Positions 886-10,529 of a stretch of DNA of 64,000 bases are shown here, piece after piece. The stretch covers positions 1 to 64,000 of the forward strand of contig NZ_CANMQQ010000008.1 of assembly GCF_947500045.1 (NCBI RefSeq), in the 5' to 3' direction. Under the pieces are notes generated by a model, which was not told the origin of the DNA, did no database searches, and saw only the letters and a program-made list of their open reading frames with translations. Each line of letters starts with the position of its first letter. Position 1 is the first letter of the stretch. The position numbers and the translations under genes are program-made. Origin of the DNA: an uncultured Ruegeria sp. (lineage in GTDB: Bacteria; Pseudomonadota; Alphaproteobacteria; Rhodobacterales; Rhodobacteraceae).

Positions 886-1812
886 TCAGAGCTCCTGCGA
901 CCAAGGCGGATTTGCCCCGGCTCGTGATACGGTAACTGCTGCAACCTTTGCCCCGAATTCCAACGCATCGTGTAGACTGCCTGCCGACAGGGCGCGCAAT
1001 GCGGATTTGTTCAGATGATCGGCTTGGTGTAGCGCGGCCAGGACGCCCGCATTAAAGGTATCACCGGCCCCGACAGTGTCGACAACCTCAACCTGTTTGA
1101 CGGGCACGGAAACCTCTGCCCCATCGGAAAGATAGCCTGTCGCGCCGTCGCCACCTTTGGTCACGACAACGACAGATGGTCCGGCCTGCAACATCAGTGG
1201 GATTTTCTCAGCATGACTTTCGGGGCCGGGGATGATCCAATCCAGATCCTCGTCAGACACCTTGACTATGTCCGCCTGCGCAATCATGTGGTTCAGGCGC
1301 GTGCGATACCGGGTCTGATCCTTGATGAACCCGGGGCGAATATTGGGGTCCAACATCACGGCGCGATCCGCGCTATGACGATCAAGCAAGGCAGCGTAGG
1401 CATCGGCGCAGGGTTCGCAAGCCAGGCTGATCCCGCCGAAATACAACGCTGATACGCCTGGTAGCTGATCCGGCATGTCTTCGGGCCGGAGCATTCGTCC
1501 TGCCGAGTTCTCATCCATGAAGCTGTATGTGGCGTTCCCGTCTTTCAGTTGCACGAAAGCAAGCGTGGTTGGGCGGTCCGAGCGGATAACGTGGGTGGTC
1601 GCCACATGGCTAATCTGCAAAGCAGAGATCAGCTGTTCCCCGAACATATCTGTAGACACACCTGACAACAGCCCTGTCTGTATGCCAAGTCGCCCCAATG
1701 CAATCGCGGTGTTGAAGATTGCACCGCCTGAGTGCGGAACAAACCCTTTCCCGCCAGAAACCGTTGGTTCGGCGATCATGTCGATCAAAGCTTCTCCGCA
1801 GCACAGGATCAT
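886..1812 (-). CDS. Fructokinase, PfkB/ribokinase family
   Basis: ATP-dependent sugar kinase of the ribokinase fold, 308 residues, the usual length. The N-terminus 'CCGEALIDMI' and 'GGAIFNTAIALGRLG' form the sugar-binding half. The C-terminal PfkB signature 'DTVGAGDTFNAG' (about residues 245-256) holds the catalytic Asp and the anion hole. It resembles bacterial fructokinases (ScrK/FrcK type). It is the last gene of the galactoside operon, 39 nt after the glucokinase fusion. In this context it would phosphorylate fructose released from sucrose- or raffinose-type sugars, although no invertase is visible in the window. Another ketose or a 2-keto-sugar substrate cannot be excluded. Confidence 0.8.
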   Translation of the reverse strand: MILCCGEALIDMIAEPTVSGGKGFVPHSGGAIFNTAIALGRLGIQTGLLSGVSTDMFGEQLISALQISHVATTHVIRSDRPTTLAFVQLKDGNATYSFMDENSAGRMLRPEDMPDQLPGVSALYFGGISLACEPCADAYAALLDRHSADRAVMLDPNIRPGFIKDQTRYRTRLNHMIAQADIVKVSDEDLDWIIPGPESHAEKIPLMLQAGPSVVVVTKGGDGATGYLSDGAEVSVPVKQVEVVDTVGAGDTFNAGVLAALHQADHLNKSALRALSAGSLHDALEFGAKVAAVTVSRAGANPPWSQEL

Positions 1813-1851: not shown

Positions 1852-3717
1852 CTACCGTGCGAGCGCATTCTTGCAGAAATTGTTAGCGCCAACAATGCCA
1901 AATTCATCCTGTTCCGAGACATACAGATTAAAGTCTCGCCGCAAATCATCGAACCGCCCGCCAGCATTGAAGGCGCGCAAGAAATCTTGCCCAAATAGCC
2001 AGCGGTTCTTCTCTGCTACGCCACCAACGAGAAATACCCCTCCGGTAGGCACAAGTGCGACTGCAAGATCACCCATGATGGCCCCAAGATGTTCGGTAAA
2101 CATGCGCGCAGCTTTGACAGCGCATGCGTCCGAGCCGTCTTGTGCGGCCTGAAGAATGTCTTTGGCTGAGCGGGTTGAGGTGTTGGTTTGACCCTCGGTC
2201 ATTCCAATGGCTTGATAGAGGATCGGAAGCCCGGTCCCGCTTACAAACATCTCGGCCTCAATTACAAGAGTATCATCAAAAAAACACTCAGGAGCGATCC
2301 GACGCGCTGCATTGAAAACTTCGACCTCATCGAAGTGACGCGGCGACAATCCCATATGGCCACCCTCGCCAGAGACCGTATGAAAGTGGCCTTCGGAATA
2401 GAGCAGGGCGCCAACACCCAGTCCAGTCCCCGGTCCCACAACCAGCCGCGTTCCGAGGGGAGGGGATGCCTCGCCTTGCAGCACTTCAACATTGCCCTCG
2501 GTGATCTCGGCCACGGACCAAGCGGCAGCTGTAAAATCGTTGATTACAAAGGTATGGTGCGCCCCGGTGGCTCGGGCCAGTTCGGTCTCGGACAGGTCCA
2601 GATTGGCGTTAGTCAGGCGAATGGTGCCATTCTGAACTGGACCAGCGCCAGCCGCAACGACTGCGCGCGGCTCGGTACCGATTTCGTCGCACAGGCTATG
2701 TAGCGCATCCTGCAGATCAGTCGGGGTGCCTGTAGGGTGTTTGCGAAGATCGGTCAGTTCCCCATCGGTCACGACACCCAACCGGGTATTGGTGCCACCG
2801 ATATCGGCCACCAGGTTCCAATGCGCATGCAGCCCCTCTTTGGATCGAACCCATGGGGAGGGCTGATTGCCGCGTTTCAAGGTCACCTGGAGCACTTCAA
2901 CTGCAGCTGTATTCTCTGATTGTATGAATGCCCCTCGGAGAGGAAAGTCGCGAGCGAGAGTTTTTTGAACGGTGTCCAAATAATGGGCTGGGTCTAAATC
3001 TGTACCCGTGGCCAAGGTCATGAAAAACGGCAGAGCCTCGGTGTCTTCAAGCGCTATGTGCATCAGCGGGTCAAGATCATCGCTCTTTCCGATGGTTACA
3101 CCGCACCAATCGATCGGTTCAGCGATTGTGGCAAAATCATCCTGCCAATTCCCGGGTAGATGAATTTCCAATCGATCCAGCAACAGCTCGGGGTATCGCT
3201 TGTTAAAGGTCACTTCAGTCATCACAGGGTCTGGCAGCATAATCTCGGCACCCAGATTGGTCATCCCATAGCTCCGCATTGCTTGGCGTGCAGAGCCTTG
3301 GGCAAGAGTTTGATGATGCAGGCTGCGCGCTTCGGTACGTGGATCACCGGGTTGCTCGGTGGACAGGCCTGATGTTGAGATGTTGAATATGCGATCCCCG
3401 GCTCGGGCGACGATCGCTTCGGCAAATTGCGCAAAATAATCGGCCATCTCCCGATTGCGCCAACCCCCGATGTCGCTCAGCGCCGGGGGAAGCTCGGCGT
3501 GATCTAGCAAAACGCACGGTCGTAGATCATGCGCCAGAACTTGATCAATCCGTTTCTCGAAGCGATCCAAGGCATCCGCATCGGTCGCGCGCCCGTCGGG
3601 CAGGATATCAATCCAACGGACCGAAAAACGAGACATGTCTAACCCGGTTGCCAAATCGGTGGGGCCTACCGCACCAAAAAGGAACCCCTTGGGAAAGTCT
3701 GAACGGGTGTATTTCAT
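1852..3717 (-). CDS. Glucokinase fused to a degenerate GH1 beta-glucosidase-like domain
   Basis: Two-domain protein of 621 residues. Residues about 300-621 are a proteobacterial glucokinase (Glk): phosphate loop 'ADIGGTNTRLG' (304-314), 'INDFTAAAW', 'GTGLGVGALL' and the 'EGGHMG' motif. Residues 1-295 align by eye with glycoside hydrolase family 1: 'FPKGFLFGA' start, 'SRFSVRWIDILPDG' (29-42), 'GGWRNREMADYFAQFAE' (84-100), 'LDTVQKTLARDFPLRGAF'. About 45 residues after the N-terminal motif are missing. The acid/base NEP site reads STS (114-116) and the nucleophile TENG site reads TLAT (234-237). The GH1 part therefore looks catalytically dead and may bind sugar or regulate the kinase. Normal Glk is about 320 residues. 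It lies in the operon between the GH42 enzyme and fructokinase. Kinase function is well supported; the role of the N-terminal domain is unknown. Confidence 0.85.
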   Translation of the reverse strand: MKYTRSDFPKGFLFGAVGPTDLATGLDMSRFSVRWIDILPDGRATDADALDRFEKRIDQVLAHDLRPCVLLDHAELPPALSDIGGWRNREMADYFAQFAEAIVARAGDRIFNISTSGLSTEQPGDPRTEARSLHHQTLAQGSARQAMRSYGMTNLGAEIMLPDPVMTEVTFNKRYPELLLDRLEIHLPGNWQDDFATIAEPIDWCGVTIGKSDDLDPLMHIALEDTEALPFFMTLATGTDLDPAHYLDTVQKTLARDFPLRGAFIQSENTAAVEVLQVTLKRGNQPSPWVRSKEGLHAHWNLVADIGGTNTRLGVVTDGELTDLRKHPTGTPTDLQDALHSLCDEIGTEPRAVVAAGAGPVQNGTIRLTNANLDLSETELARATGAHHTFVINDFTAAAWSVAEITEGNVEVLQGEASPPLGTRLVVGPGTGLGVGALLYSEGHFHTVSGEGGHMGLSPRHFDEVEVFNAARRIAPECFFDDTLVIEAEMFVSGTGLPILYQAIGMTEGQTNTSTRSAKDILQAAQDGSDACAVKAARMFTEHLGAIMGDLAVALVPTGGVFLVGGVAEKNRWLFGQDFLRAFNAGGRFDDLRRDFNLYVSEQDEFGIVGANNFCKNALAR

Positions 3718-3785: not shown

Positions 3786-5699
3786 TTACGATTGCTCAGG
3801 GTTGCGCTTTCTAAATTGAACGTCACAGCCTTCAATCTGCAGGTCATCCCAGGCTATTGGATGTGCATTGTAATTTATAAACACCTCATGTGACCTTGTT
3901 TCGCGCCGCCGTAGTCCTGTAGGCATCGGGTGGAGTGTCAGGCCAGTTTTCTGAGCGGCCATGGCAATGACTCGATCCCAAAGAACCTCATCCGGGAAAC
4001 CCGGCAGATACCAAAGTCGTTCTTCGCCTTGCAACGCCGGCGTACCATCGGCGAATGACAGCAAGCTTCGGGCTGTGCCTGACATGCGTTCGACCCAGTG
4101 TTCCACACTGCCGCCTCCGTCGACTGTACGGGCCACGCCGGGTGGAAGGGTTTCGATCAGGTCAACATGGCAGCTCAACCCTCCAAGACCGGGGCGCCCC
4201 TGTTGAGGGATCTGAAAGTCTTCAGTGATCGCACCACAGCGCGGCCCCAGCAATGCCAGATCACAGCCGTGCAACAGCCGCTGCTCAAGATCACCCAATA
4301 CAGCCACGCCCGGCGTCAGAATCAGGTTGTAGTGATCCTCGCCGACTCTGGTAGGTGGAACAAAATCCACTGATAACCCGGCACGTCGCAGCGCGCGATA
4401 GGCTGAGAATACGAGCTTGAAGTAATCGAACCCTGCGCCCTGAGGCTGCGCTGCCCACGCCCAATCTGACGCATAGTCGAATACTATCGCTACGGGCGCA
4501 CGCGCGGCTTGAATCTCACCCAACGCCGCCAGGTCATCGGCGGTCTGGCGCGCCTCGGCCAAGCCGGGTGCGTCATGACCATCAGGGGTCAATAGCCCGG
4601 CATGCATTTGTTCTTGCCCGAAAGGTGCCTGCCGCCAGCGGAAATAGCTGACCACTTCGGCCCCATGCGCCACGGCTTCAAGCGACCAAAGGCGCACCAT
4701 TCCGGGCAGGGGGGCTGGATTGTAGGGTGCCCAGTTCACCGGGCCGGGCTGCTGTTCCATCACCCACCAGCGACCGTGGCCGACAGCGCGGTACAGATCA
4801 TGATGAAAGGCCTGCATGTCAGGATCACCCTGCTGCAGATACGCGGTTTTGTGCGCCTCATCCGCCTCCAGCCGATCTGACAGGAAACCGATCGGGTAGC
4901 TGTCCCACGTGGCGATATCCAGATCATCTCCAACATCAAAATGATCGAAATCCAGTACGCGGCCCATGTAGTTGTGCAGCAAAGGGACATCCGTCAGGGG
5001 CCGCAACACATCGACCTGAGCTTTGTTGAACGCCACCACCTGATCCGAGCTGAATCGTCGAAACGCCAGGACATGCGCCGGGTTGGGTTCGGTCACGGTC
5101 AGGTTCGGAAACTCTATCTGATCGAAGCTGTTGTACTCCATCGACCAGAACACATTACCCCACGCGGCGTTCAGTGCCTCAATCGATCCGTAGCGATCCG
5201 AAAGCCAGCGACGAAACGCCTTTAGAGCTGCATCGCTATAGCTGAGCGTCGTGTCATGACATCCATATTCATTGTCGATCTGCCATGCGGCGATATGCGG
5301 GTTGTGGCCATAGCGTCGACCCATAAGCTGTGCGATGCGCTTGCATTCGTCGACATAGCCGGGATGGCTAAAACAATAATGTCGGCGCGAGCCAAATTTA
5401 CGTGGATTACCATAGGCATCAACAGCCAGCATCTCGGGAAGCTTGTCCAACATCCAACGCGGTGGCGTTGCGGTCGGGGTGCCCAACACAATCTTCAAGC
5501 CAGCAGAGCCTAAGGCCTCAATCGCGCGATCCAACCAGTCAAATTGCAGATCGCCCGGCGTGGGCTCCATCCAGCTCCAGGCAAACTCTCCGATCCGCAC
5601 CCATGTCAGGCCGGTCTCGATCATGCGCGCTGCGTCCTTGGCCCAATTCTCTTCGGGCCAGTGTTCGGGGTAATAACAGACGCCAAGTTCTGCCTTCAT
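3786..5699 (-). CDS. Beta-galactosidase, glycoside hydrolase family 42
   Basis: Cytoplasmic beta-galactosidase of 637 residues with no signal peptide. The N-terminus 'GVCYYPEHWPEENWA' is diagnostic of GH42. The acid/base is Glu144 in 'WQIDNEYG' and the nucleophile is Glu315 in 'VMEQQPGPVNW'. A trimerisation-like domain (about 385-570) and a small beta domain follow. The start overlaps the stop of the SMP-30 gene by 4 nt (ATGA), implying translational coupling. It would split lactose or other beta-galactosides brought in by the ABC importer of the operon and supply galactose to the oxidative pathway. It slightly differs from LacZ (GH2) systems, which have no counterpart here. Confidence 0.92.
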   Translation of the reverse strand: MKAELGVCYYPEHWPEENWAKDAARMIETGLTWVRIGEFAWSWMEPTPGDLQFDWLDRAIEALGSAGLKIVLGTPTATPPRWMLDKLPEMLAVDAYGNPRKFGSRRHYCFSHPGYVDECKRIAQLMGRRYGHNPHIAAWQIDNEYGCHDTTLSYSDAALKAFRRWLSDRYGSIEALNAAWGNVFWSMEYNSFDQIEFPNLTVTEPNPAHVLAFRRFSSDQVVAFNKAQVDVLRPLTDVPLLHNYMGRVLDFDHFDVGDDLDIATWDSYPIGFLSDRLEADEAHKTAYLQQGDPDMQAFHHDLYRAVGHGRWWVMEQQPGPVNWAPYNPAPLPGMVRLWSLEAVAHGAEVVSYFRWRQAPFGQEQMHAGLLTPDGHDAPGLAEARQTADDLAALGEIQAARAPVAIVFDYASDWAWAAQPQGAGFDYFKLVFSAYRALRRAGLSVDFVPPTRVGEDHYNLILTPGVAVLGDLEQRLLHGCDLALLGPRCGAITEDFQIPQQGRPGLGGLSCHVDLIETLPPGVARTVDGGGSVEHWVERMSGTARSLLSFADGTPALQGEERLWYLPGFPDEVLWDRVIAMAAQKTGLTLHPMPTGLRRRETRSHEVFINYNAHPIAWDDLQIEGCDVQFRKRNPEQS

Positions 5700-6556
5700 A
5701 GGATAACTCTGTGCTCCGCCTGACCTTGCCCGACATCTGACGCGGCGAAGGTCATACCGTTTGTTGGGGTTTGTATTAACGCGTCCGTCTCCAGCCCCTG
5801 TCGGGCGGTGGTGCAGAACAGTGTGGTCAGATCATTACCGCCAAAGCTTGGACAAGAGGTGTGTTCTGCGTCGAAACCGACGGTTTTCAGGAATTGACCG
5901 CCCGGGGAATAAGCAGCAACCCGGCTGGCCCCCCATTGGGCGATCCAGATATTACCGCCGCGATCAACAACCGCTCCGTCCGGGTTCAGACCTTCATTCT
6001 TTAGATCGAGGAATACAGCAGCGTCCCCAATGGGCCAGCCTGTTTCGGCGTCTAGCTCCCAGCGCATGACCTGTCCGGTGACGGTATCACTGTAGTAGGC
6101 ACAGGAGCTATCTGGTGCAAAGCAGATCGCGTTTGTGATGGTTACGTCTCGTACCAATGGCCGCAGTTCGCCTTTCCAAAAGCGATAGATTGATCCGGCC
6201 CCAGCTTCCGCCTGTTTGCCCATGGTGCCAATCCAGAACCCGCCCCACGGATCGGCGCGGCCATCGTTGGATCGGGTCACAGGATTGTCGGCCTCAAGCG
6301 GGACAATCAGGTCTATGGTGTGGCTTGTCAGCCCAAAGCGCCAAAGGCCGGTCTCTGATGCGATCATCAGCGTGTCGTGGTCAACCCATCCGGCGGTGGA
6401 GACATGTTCTTTGAATTCCCACACCTGTGGTTTATCTTTTTTTCGGGACATCAGGCGTTTGCCGATGATGTCGAACCAGAAAAGCTGCTTTCGCTCAGGG
6501 TGCCACAATGGCCCCTCGCCAAGTTCGCAGGGGCGGTCATCGTAAACGTGACTCAT
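5696..6556 (-). CDS. SMP-30/gluconolactonase family sugar lactonase (probable galactonolactonase)
   Basis: Six-bladed beta-propeller lactonase of 286 residues. Expected metal ligands are visible: Glu in 'CELGEGPLWHPE' (about residue 13), Asn in 'TITNAICFAPD', and Asp in 'LNPDGAVVD'; the substrate-site motif 'RSNDGRADPWGGFWIGTM' is present. It would hydrolyse the aldonolactone formed by the sugar dehydrogenase to galactonate. The start overlaps dgoA by 4 nt and the stop overlaps the GH42 start by 4 nt. The same family acts on glucono-, xylono- and arabinonolactones; galactonolactone is inferred from its DgoK/DgoA neighbours. Confidence 0.85.
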   Translation of the reverse strand: MSHVYDDRPCELGEGPLWHPERKQLFWFDIIGKRLMSRKKDKPQVWEFKEHVSTAGWVDHDTLMIASETGLWRFGLTSHTIDLIVPLEADNPVTRSNDGRADPWGGFWIGTMGKQAEAGAGSIYRFWKGELRPLVRDVTITNAICFAPDSSCAYYSDTVTGQVMRWELDAETGWPIGDAAVFLDLKNEGLNPDGAVVDRGGNIWIAQWGASRVAAYSPGGQFLKTVGFDAEHTSCPSFGGNDLTTLFCTTARQGLETDALIQTPTNGMTFAASDVGQGQAEHRVIL

Positions 6557-7158
6557 CTGACAGCCTCGTCGAAAGCAGCCACAATCTGTTGGGCGCGATC
6601 CGATATTTCAGCAACCGACATTCCCGGCTTAAAAATCGCTGATCCGATCCCGAAGCCATCAGCGCTTGCCCTGATCCATTGATCGAAATTCTCAGGGCCT
6701 GCACCACCTACCGCATAGACCTGAGTGCCCGGTGGCAGAATGGCGCGCATCGCAGCCAGCCCTGCGGTTCCGGCCATCGATCCGGGGAACAGTTTCAGCC
6801 CTGTGGCCCCGGCCTGTAATGCGCTGAAGGCTTCGGTTGGGGTGAAAACACCGGGCCAGGTTTGCACCTCAAGCGCAACGGATCGCCGGATTACGGACAC
6901 ATCGCAGTTTGGCGAAACGATCAGTTTTCCACCTACATTTGCAACCGCTTCAACCTGATCGGTGGTCAGCACAGTACCAGCTCCGACAAGAGCCCGATCC
7001 CCGATCTCTGAGACGAGGATACGGATGCTTTCCAACGGATCAGGAGAGTTCAGTGGTACTTCGATCCGGTCTATGCCCGCTTGCACCAGAGCGTGCCCGA
7101 CCGGCTTTGCCTCATCGGGTGTCAACCCGCGCAGGATGGCGATAATGGGACGGCTCAT
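6553..7158 (-). CDS. dgoA: 2-dehydro-3-deoxy-6-phosphogalactonate aldolase
   Basis: Class I (Schiff-base) KDPG/KDPGal aldolase of 201 residues, a TIM barrel. 'IAILRGLTPDEA' starts the barrel, Glu in 'RIEVPLNSP' and Lys in 'GLKLFPG' (about residue 122) are the catalytic pair, and 'AVGGAGPENFDQW' is the phosphate site. The 'ILRGLTPDEA' and 'PLNSPDP' forms are typical of DgoA rather than Eda. It splits KDPGal to pyruvate and glyceraldehyde-3-phosphate. Its start overlaps the end of dgoK by 4 nt. Confidence 0.92.
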   Translation of the reverse strand: MSRPIIAILRGLTPDEAKPVGHALVQAGIDRIEVPLNSPDPLESIRILVSEIGDRALVGAGTVLTTDQVEAVANVGGKLIVSPNCDVSVIRRSVALEVQTWPGVFTPTEAFSALQAGATGLKLFPGSMAGTAGLAAMRAILPPGTQVYAVGGAGPENFDQWIRASADGFGIGSAIFKPGMSVAEISDRAQQIVAAFDEAVR

Positions 7159-8048
7159 GCTGTTTGCCTCGTCAATGTTCTGGCTTGTGCCAGCCCCGCA
7201 ATAGTTGTGGCGGTGGCGTCTGCAGTCTCAACCAGCGCACCCTGCTGCTGCAGAGCGGTCGCGTATGCGTTGGTTAAACCCTCTGAGCCGATGACAGCCA
7301 ATTGCTGACCCAACCAATAGGGCCGCGATGCGGAAAGTTCTGCACCGATCAAGAGCCCTGAAAGCCGGGCGCGCGCGATGCTTTTGTTCTGACCATGTAG
7401 CAAATCTGCGGCACGCAACCCAAAGAGTCGTGCTGCAAGTTGTTCAGGCTTCGACAGCGTATCGGATACGGCATCGGCAAAACTCGCGTCATCCCATCCG
7501 TCGTCGATGGAATGACGCAGAACGGATTGCCCCCGCAGCAGGTCAAACAATTCACCGGTCATAAAGGTGCGGAAACTAACGACCTCACCTGCACTGATCT
7601 GCGCCCATTTCGTATGAGTGCCGGGCAGACAAATGACACCATCCCAATTCTGATGCGTACTGAGAAAACCCGCGATCTGCGTTTCTTCACCGCGCATTAC
7701 ATCGGGCGGGTTATTCTGCTTGAGCCCCGGCACCACGAAGGCCCGAATGCGTGGATCAGTATTTGGAACACGGAACGGCACAACTGGGATTGGCTCGGAC
7801 GGCACTGCGGAATACGGGGCCTCGACCCAACCCTGCCGTGCACCAACCATTCCGCAGGCGATCACGTCTACCGGTTTCCCGGGCAGCCAATCTTCGATTA
7901 GAGCCAGCAGCGCGGCCTGGAAATCGCCACCCGCTGTGCGCGACATGCCATCCTGCGACGCGGTCTGGGTCAGAACGCTTTCGCCTTGCATGGCCCAGGC
8001 CCGCAAATGAGATGTTCCCCAATCGACAGCGATCCACTCGACATTCAT
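7155..8048 (-). CDS. dgoK: 2-dehydro-3-deoxygalactonokinase
   Basis: ATP-dependent kinase of 297 residues that makes KDPGal from 2-keto-3-deoxygalactonate. Family hallmarks are the N-terminal 'IAVDWGTSHLRAW' phosphate motif, 'ACGMVGARQGWVEAPY', 'DVMRGEETQIAGF' and 'LPGTHTKWAQI'. It lies 4 nt downstream of the SDR gene and overlaps dgoA, so the three are one translational block. Together with DgoA it pins this pathway to the De Ley-Doudoroff route for galactose. Confidence 0.93.
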   Translation of the reverse strand: MNVEWIAVDWGTSHLRAWAMQGESVLTQTASQDGMSRTAGGDFQAALLALIEDWLPGKPVDVIACGMVGARQGWVEAPYSAVPSEPIPVVPFRVPNTDPRIRAFVVPGLKQNNPPDVMRGEETQIAGFLSTHQNWDGVICLPGTHTKWAQISAGEVVSFRTFMTGELFDLLRGQSVLRHSIDDGWDDASFADAVSDTLSKPEQLAARLFGLRAADLLHGQNKSIARARLSGLLIGAELSASRPYWLGQQLAVIGSEGLTNAYATALQQQGALVETADATATTIAGLAQARTLTRQTA

Positions 8049-8052
8049 AGCG

Positions 8053-8820
8053 TCACCCCGTTGTCACCACGCCACCATCGACGACCATACATTGACCCGT
8101 CATTGCGCGGCTGGCATCCGAAGCCAAAAATAGGGTTGGTGCGATCATGTCTTCGGGTATCAAATGCTCTTTCAGGCATTGGCGGTCCAGATGCGCGGCC
8201 AAATCTTCTGACGTGGCCCACATATCCAGCTGTTTCTGCGTCAGTACCCATCCCGGCGCCAACGCGTTGACGCGGATTCTTTGTGGCCCAAGCTCGCGCG
8301 CCAAAGAGCGTGTCATACCGGTGATCGCCGCATTCGAACTGGTGTAGATCGGATAACCGGCATTCCCCATCAAGTAGCTGATCGAACTGAAATTGATGAT
8401 CGAACCACCTTTGTCCTTCATCTGGCGCGCAGCTTCCTGGCAGGTGAAGTAGTAGGCTTTGAGGTTCACCTCGATCATCCAGTCCCAAAAGTCGGGCGTG
8501 GTTTCTTCCAGCGAGTGGCGTTTGTCATTGGCGGCATTGTTGACCAGCACATTCAGCGGGCCGTGGACTTCGGCTGCTTTTGCCATGGTGGCATGCAACA
8601 GCTCGGTGTCCGTCATGTCACCCTGCAAAAACAAGGGAGCGCGGCCATGTTTATCGCGCATCTGATCGACAAAAGCGCTGGCATCGGAGCGGCCGATAAA
8701 GGCGACATTGGCGCCTTGTCCCATGAAGCCGTCGGTCAGAGCTGCGCCAACTCCTGATCCGCCGCCTGTAATATATACTGACGCGCCGCGCAGGTCGTGA
8801 AATGAAGCAAGTTGATCCAT
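8053..8820 (-). CDS. SDR-family sugar dehydrogenase (probable galactose 1-dehydrogenase), catalytic Lys replaced by Asn
   Basis: Short-chain dehydrogenase of 255 residues. NAD(P) site 'GGGSGVG' (19-25), 'VNNAAN' (93-98), active-site Ser146 in 'INFSSIS' and Tyr159 are present. The normal YxxxK signature reads Y159-T-S-S-N163, so the lysine that lowers the tyrosine pKa is asparagine; the codon is a clear AAT. Overall similarity is to the xylose/galactose dehydrogenase branch (Caulobacter XylB-like 'LARELGP.IRV', 'QCLKEHLIPEDMI'). Its position between dehydratase and DgoK argues for oxidation of galactose to the lactone. The stop of the dehydratase and this start share one base (TGATG). Function is probable, but the missing lysine leaves activity in question. 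Confidence 0.75.
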   Translation of the reverse strand: MDQLASFHDLRGASVYITGGGSGVGAALTDGFMGQGANVAFIGRSDASAFVDQMRDKHGRAPLFLQGDMTDTELLHATMAKAAEVHGPLNVLVNNAANDKRHSLEETTPDFWDWMIEVNLKAYYFTCQEAARQMKDKGGSIINFSSISYLMGNAGYPIYTSSNAAITGMTRSLARELGPQRIRVNALAPGWVLTQKQLDMWATSEDLAAHLDRQCLKEHLIPEDMIAPTLFLASDASRAMTGQCMVVDGGVVTTG

Positions 8821-10529
8821 CAGTGGCTCTCTCTCGTCACAAGGCGCGTGTCTTTACCGACAAGGAAATCAAGATCAGCACCGCGATCAGCCTGCAACAC
8901 ATGGTCGATATATAGTTTTGCATAACCGCGCGTATAATGCGGATCGTCCGGTTGCCATAGGGCGCGGCGGGCGTCCAGTTCCTTTTCGTCGACAAGCAGT
9001 TCCAGTTCGCCATTGCTGGCAGATACACGGATGCGGTCGCCGGTCTTAACCAAGGCCAACGTGCCACCGGCCTGAGCCTCGGGGCTGACATGCAGAACGA
9101 CCGTTCCGAAGGCGGTTCCAGACATACGCGCGTCTGAGATTCGGATCATATCGCGCACACCCTCCTTCACCAGCTTGGCGGGGATAGGCATGTTGCCAAC
9201 CTCGGGCATGCCCGGATATCCCTTGGGGCCACAGCCTTTGAGGACCAGTATCGTGTTAGGTGTCACCGGCAGATCGTCGCGGTCGATATTGGCTTTCAGG
9301 TCTTCGATGCTTTCGAAAACGTAAGCTTCGGCTTCGGTCTCTAACAACGCGTCGGTAGCGGCCGAGGGCTTAACGATGGCCCCGTTGGGCGCAAGGTTCC
9401 CGCGCAAGACACGCAGGCCCGCGGCAGGTTTTACCGGGTCATCAAAGGGTCGGATTACATCCGGATTGTAGCATTCAGCGCCTTCGTAATGGGCTGAGAT
9501 GTCCTTGTTCAATACCGTTTTTGCTGGACGCAGAAAGGGTTTTAGTTCGGACAGAACCACGGGTACACCGCCTGCATAACAGAAATCCTCCATCAGGTAT
9601 TTGCCCGAAGGCATGCAGTTCACAAGCAGGGGAATCTCGGACCCGATTTCAAAATCTTTCAACGTCAGATCAATGCCCAAACGACCCGCGAGTGCGAGAA
9701 GATGGATGACCGCATTGGTCGACCCACCAACGGCGGCGTTTGCGAGGATGGCATTTTCGAACGCTTGTTTTGTCAGAATGTCCGATGGCTTAAGGTCCTC
9801 ATCCACCATCTCGACAATTCGTTTGCCGGTCAGATGTGCCAGCGCCATGCGGCGTGCGTCAACGGCGGGCAGGGCGGCGTTGGTGGGCAAGCTCATTCCC
9901 ATCGCTTCAACCAGCGAGGCCATGGTGCTGGCGGTACCCATCGTCATGCAAACCCCTGCGCTGCGCGACATACCGGATTCCGCATTCATGAAATCCTGCA
10001 AGGTCATTTCCCCTGCTCGGACAGCTTCTGAAAATTTCCAGACGTCAGTGCCCGAACCGATATCCTGCCCCCGGTATTTACCATTCAGCATCGGGCCCGA
10101 GCTGACGACGATTGATGGAAGATCAACTGAAGCTGCGCCCATCAACTGACCCGGAGTTGTCTTGTCACATCCGCCCAGAAGGACGACGCCGTCAATGCCA
10201 TAAGCGCGAATGGACTCTTCAACATCCATTGCCAAAAGGTTGCGGAACAGCATGGCGGTGGGCTTCATTTGTGTCTCACCCAGGCTCATCACCGGGAATT
10301 CAACCGGGAAGCCGCCAGCCTCCCAAACGCCACGCTTGACGCCTTCGGCCAGATCACGAAGACCCGAATTGCAGGGCGTCAGTTCTGACCATGTATTGCA
10401 GATGCCAATGACGGGCCGCCCGTCAAAAGCGTGGTCTGGAAAGCCCTGATTTTTCATCCAGGATCGGTGGATGAACCCGTCTTTATCGAGTTTCCCGTAC
10501 CAATGTTGTGAACGGCGTTTCTTTGTCAT
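8820..10529 (-). CDS. IlvD/EDD-family sugar-acid dehydratase (arabinonate/galactonate type)
   Basis: Dehydratase of 569 residues, strongly like the L-arabinonate dehydratase subgroup (start 'RRSQHWYGKLDKDG', 'GCDKTTPGQLMGAASVD', 'SGTDVWKFSE', 'ARMSGTAFGTVVLHVSPEA'). Cysteines in 'CNTW', 'GGCDKTTP' and 'AGVCMTMGTAST' fit the Fe-S and Mg ligands of the family. That subgroup is known to accept D-galactonate and D-fuconate as well as L-arabinonate, so it can supply the galactonate dehydration step in place of an enolase-type DgoD. The ATG at 10529 is chosen because family homology begins there; an upstream in-frame start at 10610 would overlap melA. Confidence 0.88.
   Translation of the reverse strand: MTKKRRSQHWYGKLDKDGFIHRSWMKNQGFPDHAFDGRPVIGICNTWSELTPCNSGLRDLAEGVKRGVWEAGGFPVEFPVMSLGETQMKPTAMLFRNLLAMDVEESIRAYGIDGVVLLGGCDKTTPGQLMGAASVDLPSIVVSSGPMLNGKYRGQDIGSGTDVWKFSEAVRAGEMTLQDFMNAESGMSRSAGVCMTMGTASTMASLVEAMGMSLPTNAALPAVDARRMALAHLTGKRIVEMVDEDLKPSDILTKQAFENAILANAAVGGSTNAVIHLLALAGRLGIDLTLKDFEIGSEIPLLVNCMPSGKYLMEDFCYAGGVPVVLSELKPFLRPAKTVLNKDISAHYEGAECYNPDVIRPFDDPVKPAAGLRVLRGNLAPNGAIVKPSAATDALLETEAEAYVFESIEDLKANIDRDDLPVTPNTILVLKGCGPKGYPGMPEVGNMPIPAKLVKEGVRDMIRISDARMSGTAFGTVVLHVSPEAQAGGTLALVKTGDRIRVSASNGELELLVDEKELDARRALWQPDDPHYTRGYAKLYIDHVLQADRGADLDFLVGKDTRLVTRESH

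Follow-up and report, generated by a model that had tools for sequence, protein, structure and literature searches.

The open reading frame at positions 1852-3717 of the stretch analysed here (the window, 64,000 nucleotides of DNA from an uncultured Ruegeria sp.) starts with ATG on the minus strand and encodes 621 residues, in which a catalytically dead derivative of a family 1 glycoside hydrolase (GH1) is joined through a linker to a complete glucokinase domain. The best explanation of our findings, to which we give a probability of roughly 70%, is that a bifunctional fusion was split by relocation or duplication followed by complementary loss, and that the dead barrel is a folded remnant carried on a working glucokinase. 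The protein would thus serve as the glucokinase of the cell, its first 285 residues being what remains of a once-active beta-glycosidase half. The features on which the argument turns are the following:

886..1812, minus strand: PfkB-family sugar kinase (by Pfam), the next gene downstream of the fusion
1852..3717, minus strand: pseudo-GH1/glucokinase fusion, complete coding sequence, 621 residues plus stop
1855..2823, minus strand: residues 299-621, glucokinase domain, the sole PF02685 match of the genome
2824..2862, minus strand: residues 286-298, linker
2863..3717, minus strand: residues 1-285, GH1-derived and catalytically dead, a minimal eight-stranded barrel with helix 1 reduced or gone
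3007..3018, minus strand: residues 234-237 (TLAT), aligned to the nucleophile motif TENG
3361..3369, minus strand: residues 117-119 (GLS), aligned to the acid/base motif NEP, with 13 residues deleted directly after
3654..3655, minus strand: point following barrel strand 1 (residues 21/22) at which 48 residues are missing
3786..5699, minus strand: GH42 beta-galactosidase (by Pfam), about 70 bp upstream of the fusion by the gap survey
5696..10526, minus strand: SMP30-type lactonase, KDPG-type aldolase, 2-keto-3-deoxygalactonokinase, SDR and IlvD/Edd dehydratase (by Pfam; the start of the dehydratase is uncertain)

The first half matches the GH1 profile PF00232 over residues 25-115 (E 3.2e-17, 62.5 bits against a cut-off of 22.6), covering only profile positions 71-162 of 453, and matches the GH1 beta-glucosidase model TIGR03356 of NCBIfam in two stretches (E 3e-24). 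Both matches are far above chance and bear out the GH1-like order of segments, from FPKGFLFGA (starting at residue 8) to PLRGAF (residue 259), which an earlier note on this DNA had read from the sequence. The alignments also agree with that note in laying the nucleophile motif on T234-L235-A236-T237, where the glutamate column holds L235, but they move the acid/base motif from STS at 114-116 to G117-L118-S119, where the column holds L118. The N-terminal deletion which the note had put at about 45 residues stands, though its size is 48, and there are six further deletions of 6-27 residues, making seven of at least three residues; the total loss relative to the intact homologue of genome G299 comes to 150 residues. 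Five of these deletions fall in strand-to-helix loops, on the catalytic face of the barrel, while the 48-residue one falls in helix 1 and another in helix 6. On the opposite face, all seven helix-to-strand loops are as long as those of the G299 protein, given domain boundaries and a choice of one helix per strand that are our own, and with the first of the seven depending on a helix 1 of four residues that is absent from the second AlphaFold2 model. The earlier observation, a pseudo-GH1 domain without either catalytic glutamate fused to an intact-looking kinase, is therefore confirmed, with corrections to the motif map and to the deletion size.

The two glutamates belong to 11 active-site columns that we checked, the other nine being the columns numbered Q20, H121, W122, N165, N296, Y298, W398, E405 and W406. 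Of the 11, the window protein retains a single one, H121. Several relatives bear the database name family 1 glycosylhydrolase, and one could suppose from this that the protein is still a glycosidase which uses other residues. With both glutamates, nearly all the checked site residues and the surrounding loops gone, and with a separate intact GH1 kept in 12 of 19 genomes that carry a degenerate fusion, we give this supposition next to no credence.

The fold has outlasted the active site in the predicted structure. A second AlphaFold2 run, supplied with degenerate fusions and plain glucokinases only, gave all eight barrel strands (mean pLDDT 91.1) in the absence of any intact GH1 sequence, with the lowest pLDDT blocks of the model in the linker region. 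It thereby avoids two faults of a first run, namely a poor kinase half and rows of intact GH1 sequence that could bias the barrel. Structure prediction, which had been put forward as a check on the GH1 assignment, thus returned a GH1-type barrel of eight strands, helix 1 being reduced or gone, and the kinase half took the fold of solved glucokinases.

The second half looks intact. The claim of an intact glucokinase domain with an EGGH motif (residue 451; DIGGTN starts at residue 305) is upheld by a PF02685 match over residues 302-616, with an E value of 1.1e-64 and 218.9 bits against a cut-off of 22.1, which takes in profile positions 1-312 of 314. The invariant motifs of the glucokinase family are present; the NCBIfam equivalog cut-off of TIGR00749 is missed (158.8 bits against 225.45). 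In the 4.46-Mb genome the fusion is the only PF02685 match, a count that covers this family and not the ROK-type kinases (PF00480). Judged by its sequence, the kinase half should phosphorylate glucose, and the glucose would be that released by the neighbouring GH42 enzyme and by other glycosidases.

The region between the two halves bears on why the barrel is still there. Reading the bases of the window by eye, we saw no in-frame ATG near the linker or ahead of the kinase; in-frame GTG and TTG codons occur there, with no well-placed ribosome site. With neither an ATG of its own nor such a site for the kinase, mutation alone would not have sufficed to shed the N-terminus. The barrel would accordingly persist because no separate start is evident for the kinase and the N-terminal part still has to fold, such that selection would keep the fold and not the chemistry. 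Against this, two database entries, P0134 and P0158 (349 and 348 residues), have their start placed at an ATG inside intact-type fusions, immediately ahead of the kinase. This could be an annotation choice or a real second start, and implies that some annotators think separate translation of the kinase possible in that type; the fusion frames of G327 and G345 are open throughout. A further protein, P0125 (351 residues), is a kinase with a short N-terminus of its own in place of the GH1 part, and is nested in the degenerate clade, so that the GH1 part is not indispensable everywhere and the kinase can do without the barrel.

Proteins of the same architecture, whose listing had been proposed as a further check, were found with both halves as queries. 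The first 296 residues matched 125 proteins, and among the best 120 of these were at least nine others of the short architecture (611-638 residues, 37-64% identity over the same region), along with full fusions of 774-775 residues, one protein of 732 residues and free GH1s some 440 residues long. The kinase half matched 400 proteins, and fusions of all lengths head the best 120 of them. Among the matches listed, none of the 37 proteins of 600-740 residues (P0001 included) has NEP in its first 260 residues, and P0081 alone among them has ENG, further along the sequence and away from the nucleophile place.

A search of 54 whole Ruegeria genomes turned these relatives into a graded series. Fused relatives with both halves intact (774-778 residues, all 11 checked active-site residues) were found in 31 of the 54, and a degenerate, shorter fusion, of 611-707 residues from the assumed ATG, in 19, the window's genome included. 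The remaining four have separate genes (G332), a contig end at this place (G339), a different glucokinase and no GH1 (G323), or neither half (G320). Both catalytic glutamates are kept in none of the 19 degenerate proteins, one is kept in five and none in 14. The direction of change proposed earlier, from hydrolase to pseudoenzyme, fits the intact fusions of the 31 sister genomes. The single glutamate that survives is the acid/base one in G300 and that of the nucleophile column in G297, G298, G301 and G310, and the survival of different glutamates suggests that inactivation probably happened at least twice. The kinase tree agrees with this in part: for the genus genomes alone its starred branches force only one change, and once 12 more degenerate proteins and two kinases lacking a GH1 part are included they force at least three. 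P0081, a longer degenerate fusion of 732 residues whose kinase groups weakly with that of G332, is possibly another separate inactivation.

The fate of the lost activity can be followed by synteny. A free, intact GH1 gene was found in none of the 31 genomes with an intact fusion and in 12 of the 19 with a degenerate one, so that both halves occur as separate genes within these 12 genomes; that of the window is among them, with one separate full-length GH1 gene on another contig. The Fisher p of 4e-7 for this difference is descriptive, since the species are not independent and the value is uncorrected for phylogeny. An alpha-glucoside (agl) operon, which by Pfam comprises an ATPase, a GH13 enzyme, two permeases and a binding protein, and a LacI gene divergent from it immediately precede the fusion in 30 of the 31 intact loci, and in none of the 19 degenerate loci are they present within flanks of about 8 kb. 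In the 12 degenerate genomes with a free GH1, the agl-LacI block is found away from the fusion, together with that gene; all 13 free-GH1 loci, these 12 and that of G332, are ordered agl-LacI-GH1, and all 13 of the GH1s have the 11 checked residues. The other seven degenerate genomes gave neither a free GH1 nor an agl permease, in a permease search with E up to 1e-60. No kinase remnant was seen within 2 kb downstream of the free GH1s (best E 0.28), and hence this part of the duplication is not observed directly.

Of four loci fetched from outgroup genera within the family, three have the order agl-LacI-GH1-glk, and the fourth is on a contig that starts within LacI. Each of the four has GH1 and glk side by side as separate frames, and the spacing in the two loci read closely is 28 and 4 bp. 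No fusion outside the genus was noticed in 295 family genomes (a single one per genus in nearly all cases), judging by eye from the open-frame lengths among the matches listed. The GH1 tree unites the fused and the free Ruegeria GH1s in a single clade (100/99), and 11 of the 13 free genes form one group (91/94) inside the fused ones, with that of G340 apart and that of G332 basal. A species tree from rpoB (56 genomes, L174-L229) was not used; its support within the genus is weak and it splits pairs that are close in other genes, such as G297 and G298, which suggests exchange between species.

These arrangements show four steps. In the outgroup loci, GH1 and glk are neighbouring but separate genes behind the agl operon and the LacI gene. 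In most of the genus they make up a single gene at the same place, with an intact GH1 half. In the window genome and 11 other degenerate ones, agl-LacI lies elsewhere with GH1 alone, while the fusion without agl has kept its kinase and lost its GH1 site. Finally, the dead half is trimmed in frame, mostly on the catalytic face, down to a minimal TIM barrel. The likely link between the second and third steps is that the agl-LacI-GH1 block was copied or moved and the two copies lost complementary halves, in other words fission by duplication and degeneration; the direction of transfer and the duplication itself are deduced from synteny and from a GH1 tree with moderate supports.

Some single genomes have layouts of their own. 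G319 is a mirror case, where an intact fusion stands away from agl and a GH1 remnant (L152:7986-8201, 72 residues, 60% identity) lies behind LacI at the agl locus, adjoining a permease that matches in two pieces. The fusion is carried on plasmids of 389-811 kb in five Ruegeria records. In G337 (loci L090 and L143) a plasmid of 512 kb bears the fusion and a contig of 3.65 Mb the free GH1, so that a transfer of the agl-LacI-GH1 block between plasmid and chromosome may have taken place.

The question of what keeps the dead half in place can be approached through its substitution pattern. Pairwise median dN/dS (NG86) was 0.050 for intact fusions in their GH1 half (computable for 393 of 465 pairs), 0.23 for the dead half of the short lineage, to which the window belongs (18 of 21), and 0.21 for that of clade B (32 of 36), which may include time before inactivation; the kinase halves gave 0.056-0.070 (20 of 21, 36 of 36 and 319 of 465). 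Among the short-lineage pairs listed, 12 finite ones range from 0.145 to 0.303, and three of the 21 were saturated. The four of the 21 that were bootstrapped gave 0.20-0.28 for the dead half, with upper 95% limits of at most 0.39, and 0.04-0.07 for the kinase part. The four species of these pairs share the same large deletions, and their divergence thus came after inactivation. Within the short lineage, then, the dead barrel is by these ratios under purifying selection. The kinase of G325 is 94% identical to that of the window and its dead half far more divergent, a mismatch indicating that the two halves may have different histories.

It could be argued that the domain is pure debris, with selection acting only to keep the reading frame open for the kinase. 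Its dN/dS is raised four- to fivefold over that of intact GH1, the closest pair (G297/G298) has a value of 0.61 that its wide limits (95% 0.30-1.44) make indistinguishable from neutral, and P0125 has no such domain although it is nested in the degenerate clade. Against this stand short-lineage ratios well below 1 in species that already shared the large deletions, 39 residues that are invariant across all 19 degenerate copies, and a complete barrel predicted at high confidence, and we therefore consider mere debris an unlikely description.

An opposite possibility, which we hold somewhat less doubtful but still improbable, is that the dead barrel gained a positive role and became necessary to the glucokinase for docking, oligomerisation or allosteric control, being bound through its preserved bottom face. 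The purifying selection just described, the unchanged loop lengths of that face and a linker that was rewritten and then conserved in the short lineage (as P-PW--P-G-LHA) would all be in keeping with it, as would R66, at the start of strand 3, which is found in 50 of 50 fusions and in 5% of 101 outgroup GH1s. However, all 39 invariant residues equal the intact consensus, so that no new common motif is seen, and 54 of the 61 positions conserved in the 50 fusions are also conserved in the 101 outgroup GH1s. R66 is a single conservative K/R difference, present too in 54% of the 13 free Ruegeria GH1s, and is for us a lead and not more; the domain is, again, absent from P0125. In 15 short-lineage sequences, a set that we picked ourselves, 73 of the conserved positions match the intact consensus; another 11 depart from it, seven of the latter lying in the barrel and four in the linker. 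In its strongest form the idea would be that, repeatedly in one genus, an active enzyme half became a loop-stripped minimal TIM barrel and a required structural or allosteric part that docks by its bottom face, a proposal that we think will probably not hold. The barrel is most likely a folded carrier without chemistry, as the interpretation by fission has it.

A further idea, made in the earlier note, is that the barrel serves in sensing, targeting or binding of a disaccharide, perhaps with this event coupled to the phosphorylation of glucose. The fusion is in line with the GH42 gene and with genes which, going by their Pfam names, would be of the De Ley-Doudoroff type for galactose; together they would free galactose and glucose from beta-galactosides and burn the galactose through that route. 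This setting, and the descent of the barrel from a sugar-binding enzyme, are what would recommend a sensor. The idea finds no support in the protein itself, where the pocket residues and the active-site loops are lost, no new motif has appeared, and the lineage-specific residues are divided between barrel and linker; P0125 shows the kinase without the domain altogether. With the pocket gone, sugar sensing is very unlikely, and we expect no sugar-binding role for the barrel.

Gain of the GH42 gene was considered as a cause of the inactivation and rejected, the gene being present in 52 of the 54 genomes, those with intact fusions included. Degenerate loci and G332 were the only places where a GH42 of the window type was seen no more than 8 kb from the fusion, and the gap between the two genes is 12.3-18.7 kb in 29 intact genomes, as opposed to anything from 69 bp up to 11.3 kb in 18 genomes with a degenerate fusion, in a survey that leaves out G319, G331 and G314, where the genes are far apart or on other contigs. 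What differs in this interval is the agl-LacI block in between. On the other side, PfkB adjoins the kinase in 50 of the 51 loci looked at within the genus, the exception being G331. The GH42 gene at G340:C30:155239-157149, next to a degenerate fusion, contains one in-frame TGA, which could be a sequencing error or decay.

We found no paper in the open-access literature on a GH1-glucokinase fusion or on its dead form. The change from enzyme to pseudoenzyme is mostly inferred from distant end points, whereas Ruegeria offers, within a single genus, the intact fusion, partly decayed forms with one glutamate left, the minimal barrel and the GH1-less kinase P0125, with outgroups that have separate genes and a lost activity whose fate is traceable by synteny. 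Loop-poor TIM barrels of about 280 residues that evolved naturally also offer a test of what folding needs once the active site is lost, and should the barrel prove to be a required scaffold, the series would be a natural, species-by-species record of the path from enzyme to pseudoenzyme to scaffold. There is a warning for annotation as well, in that several of these kinases are named as glycosylhydrolases.

Compared with GH1 beta-glucosidases (PF00232; SghA, 6rk2, and the Thermotoga maritima enzyme, 1oif), which have about 440 residues, the GH1 part of the fusion has about 285 and is without the glutamates, most of the checked sugar-site residues and the active-site loops. It differs from glucokinases of the E. 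coli Glk type (PF02685; 1sz2) by the 285-residue dead barrel in front and by scores below the NCBIfam equivalog cut-offs. Pseudo-GH1 domains are already known from Klotho, an animal protein whose GH1-like domains KL1 and KL2 have, as far as the account in PMC10628560 goes, replaced catalytic glutamates and a non-hydrolytic use, KL2 binding FGF tails at the former active site. The replaced glutamates are common to both systems; Klotho, on that account, is part of a receptor and uses its former active site, whereas in the fusion the active-site face is stripped and the partner is the kinase of the same chain. Fission by duplication and partial degeneration is likewise known, and Wang, Yu and Long 2004 is reportedly the source cited for it. 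In the outline given in PMC4345279, an ancestral multidomain gene gives rise to two genes that keep complementary domains. Set against that outline, the Ruegeria case differs in that the losing half is not removed but stays as a folded, loop-less pseudo-domain, and in that a graded series of species displays the decay on the kinase side.
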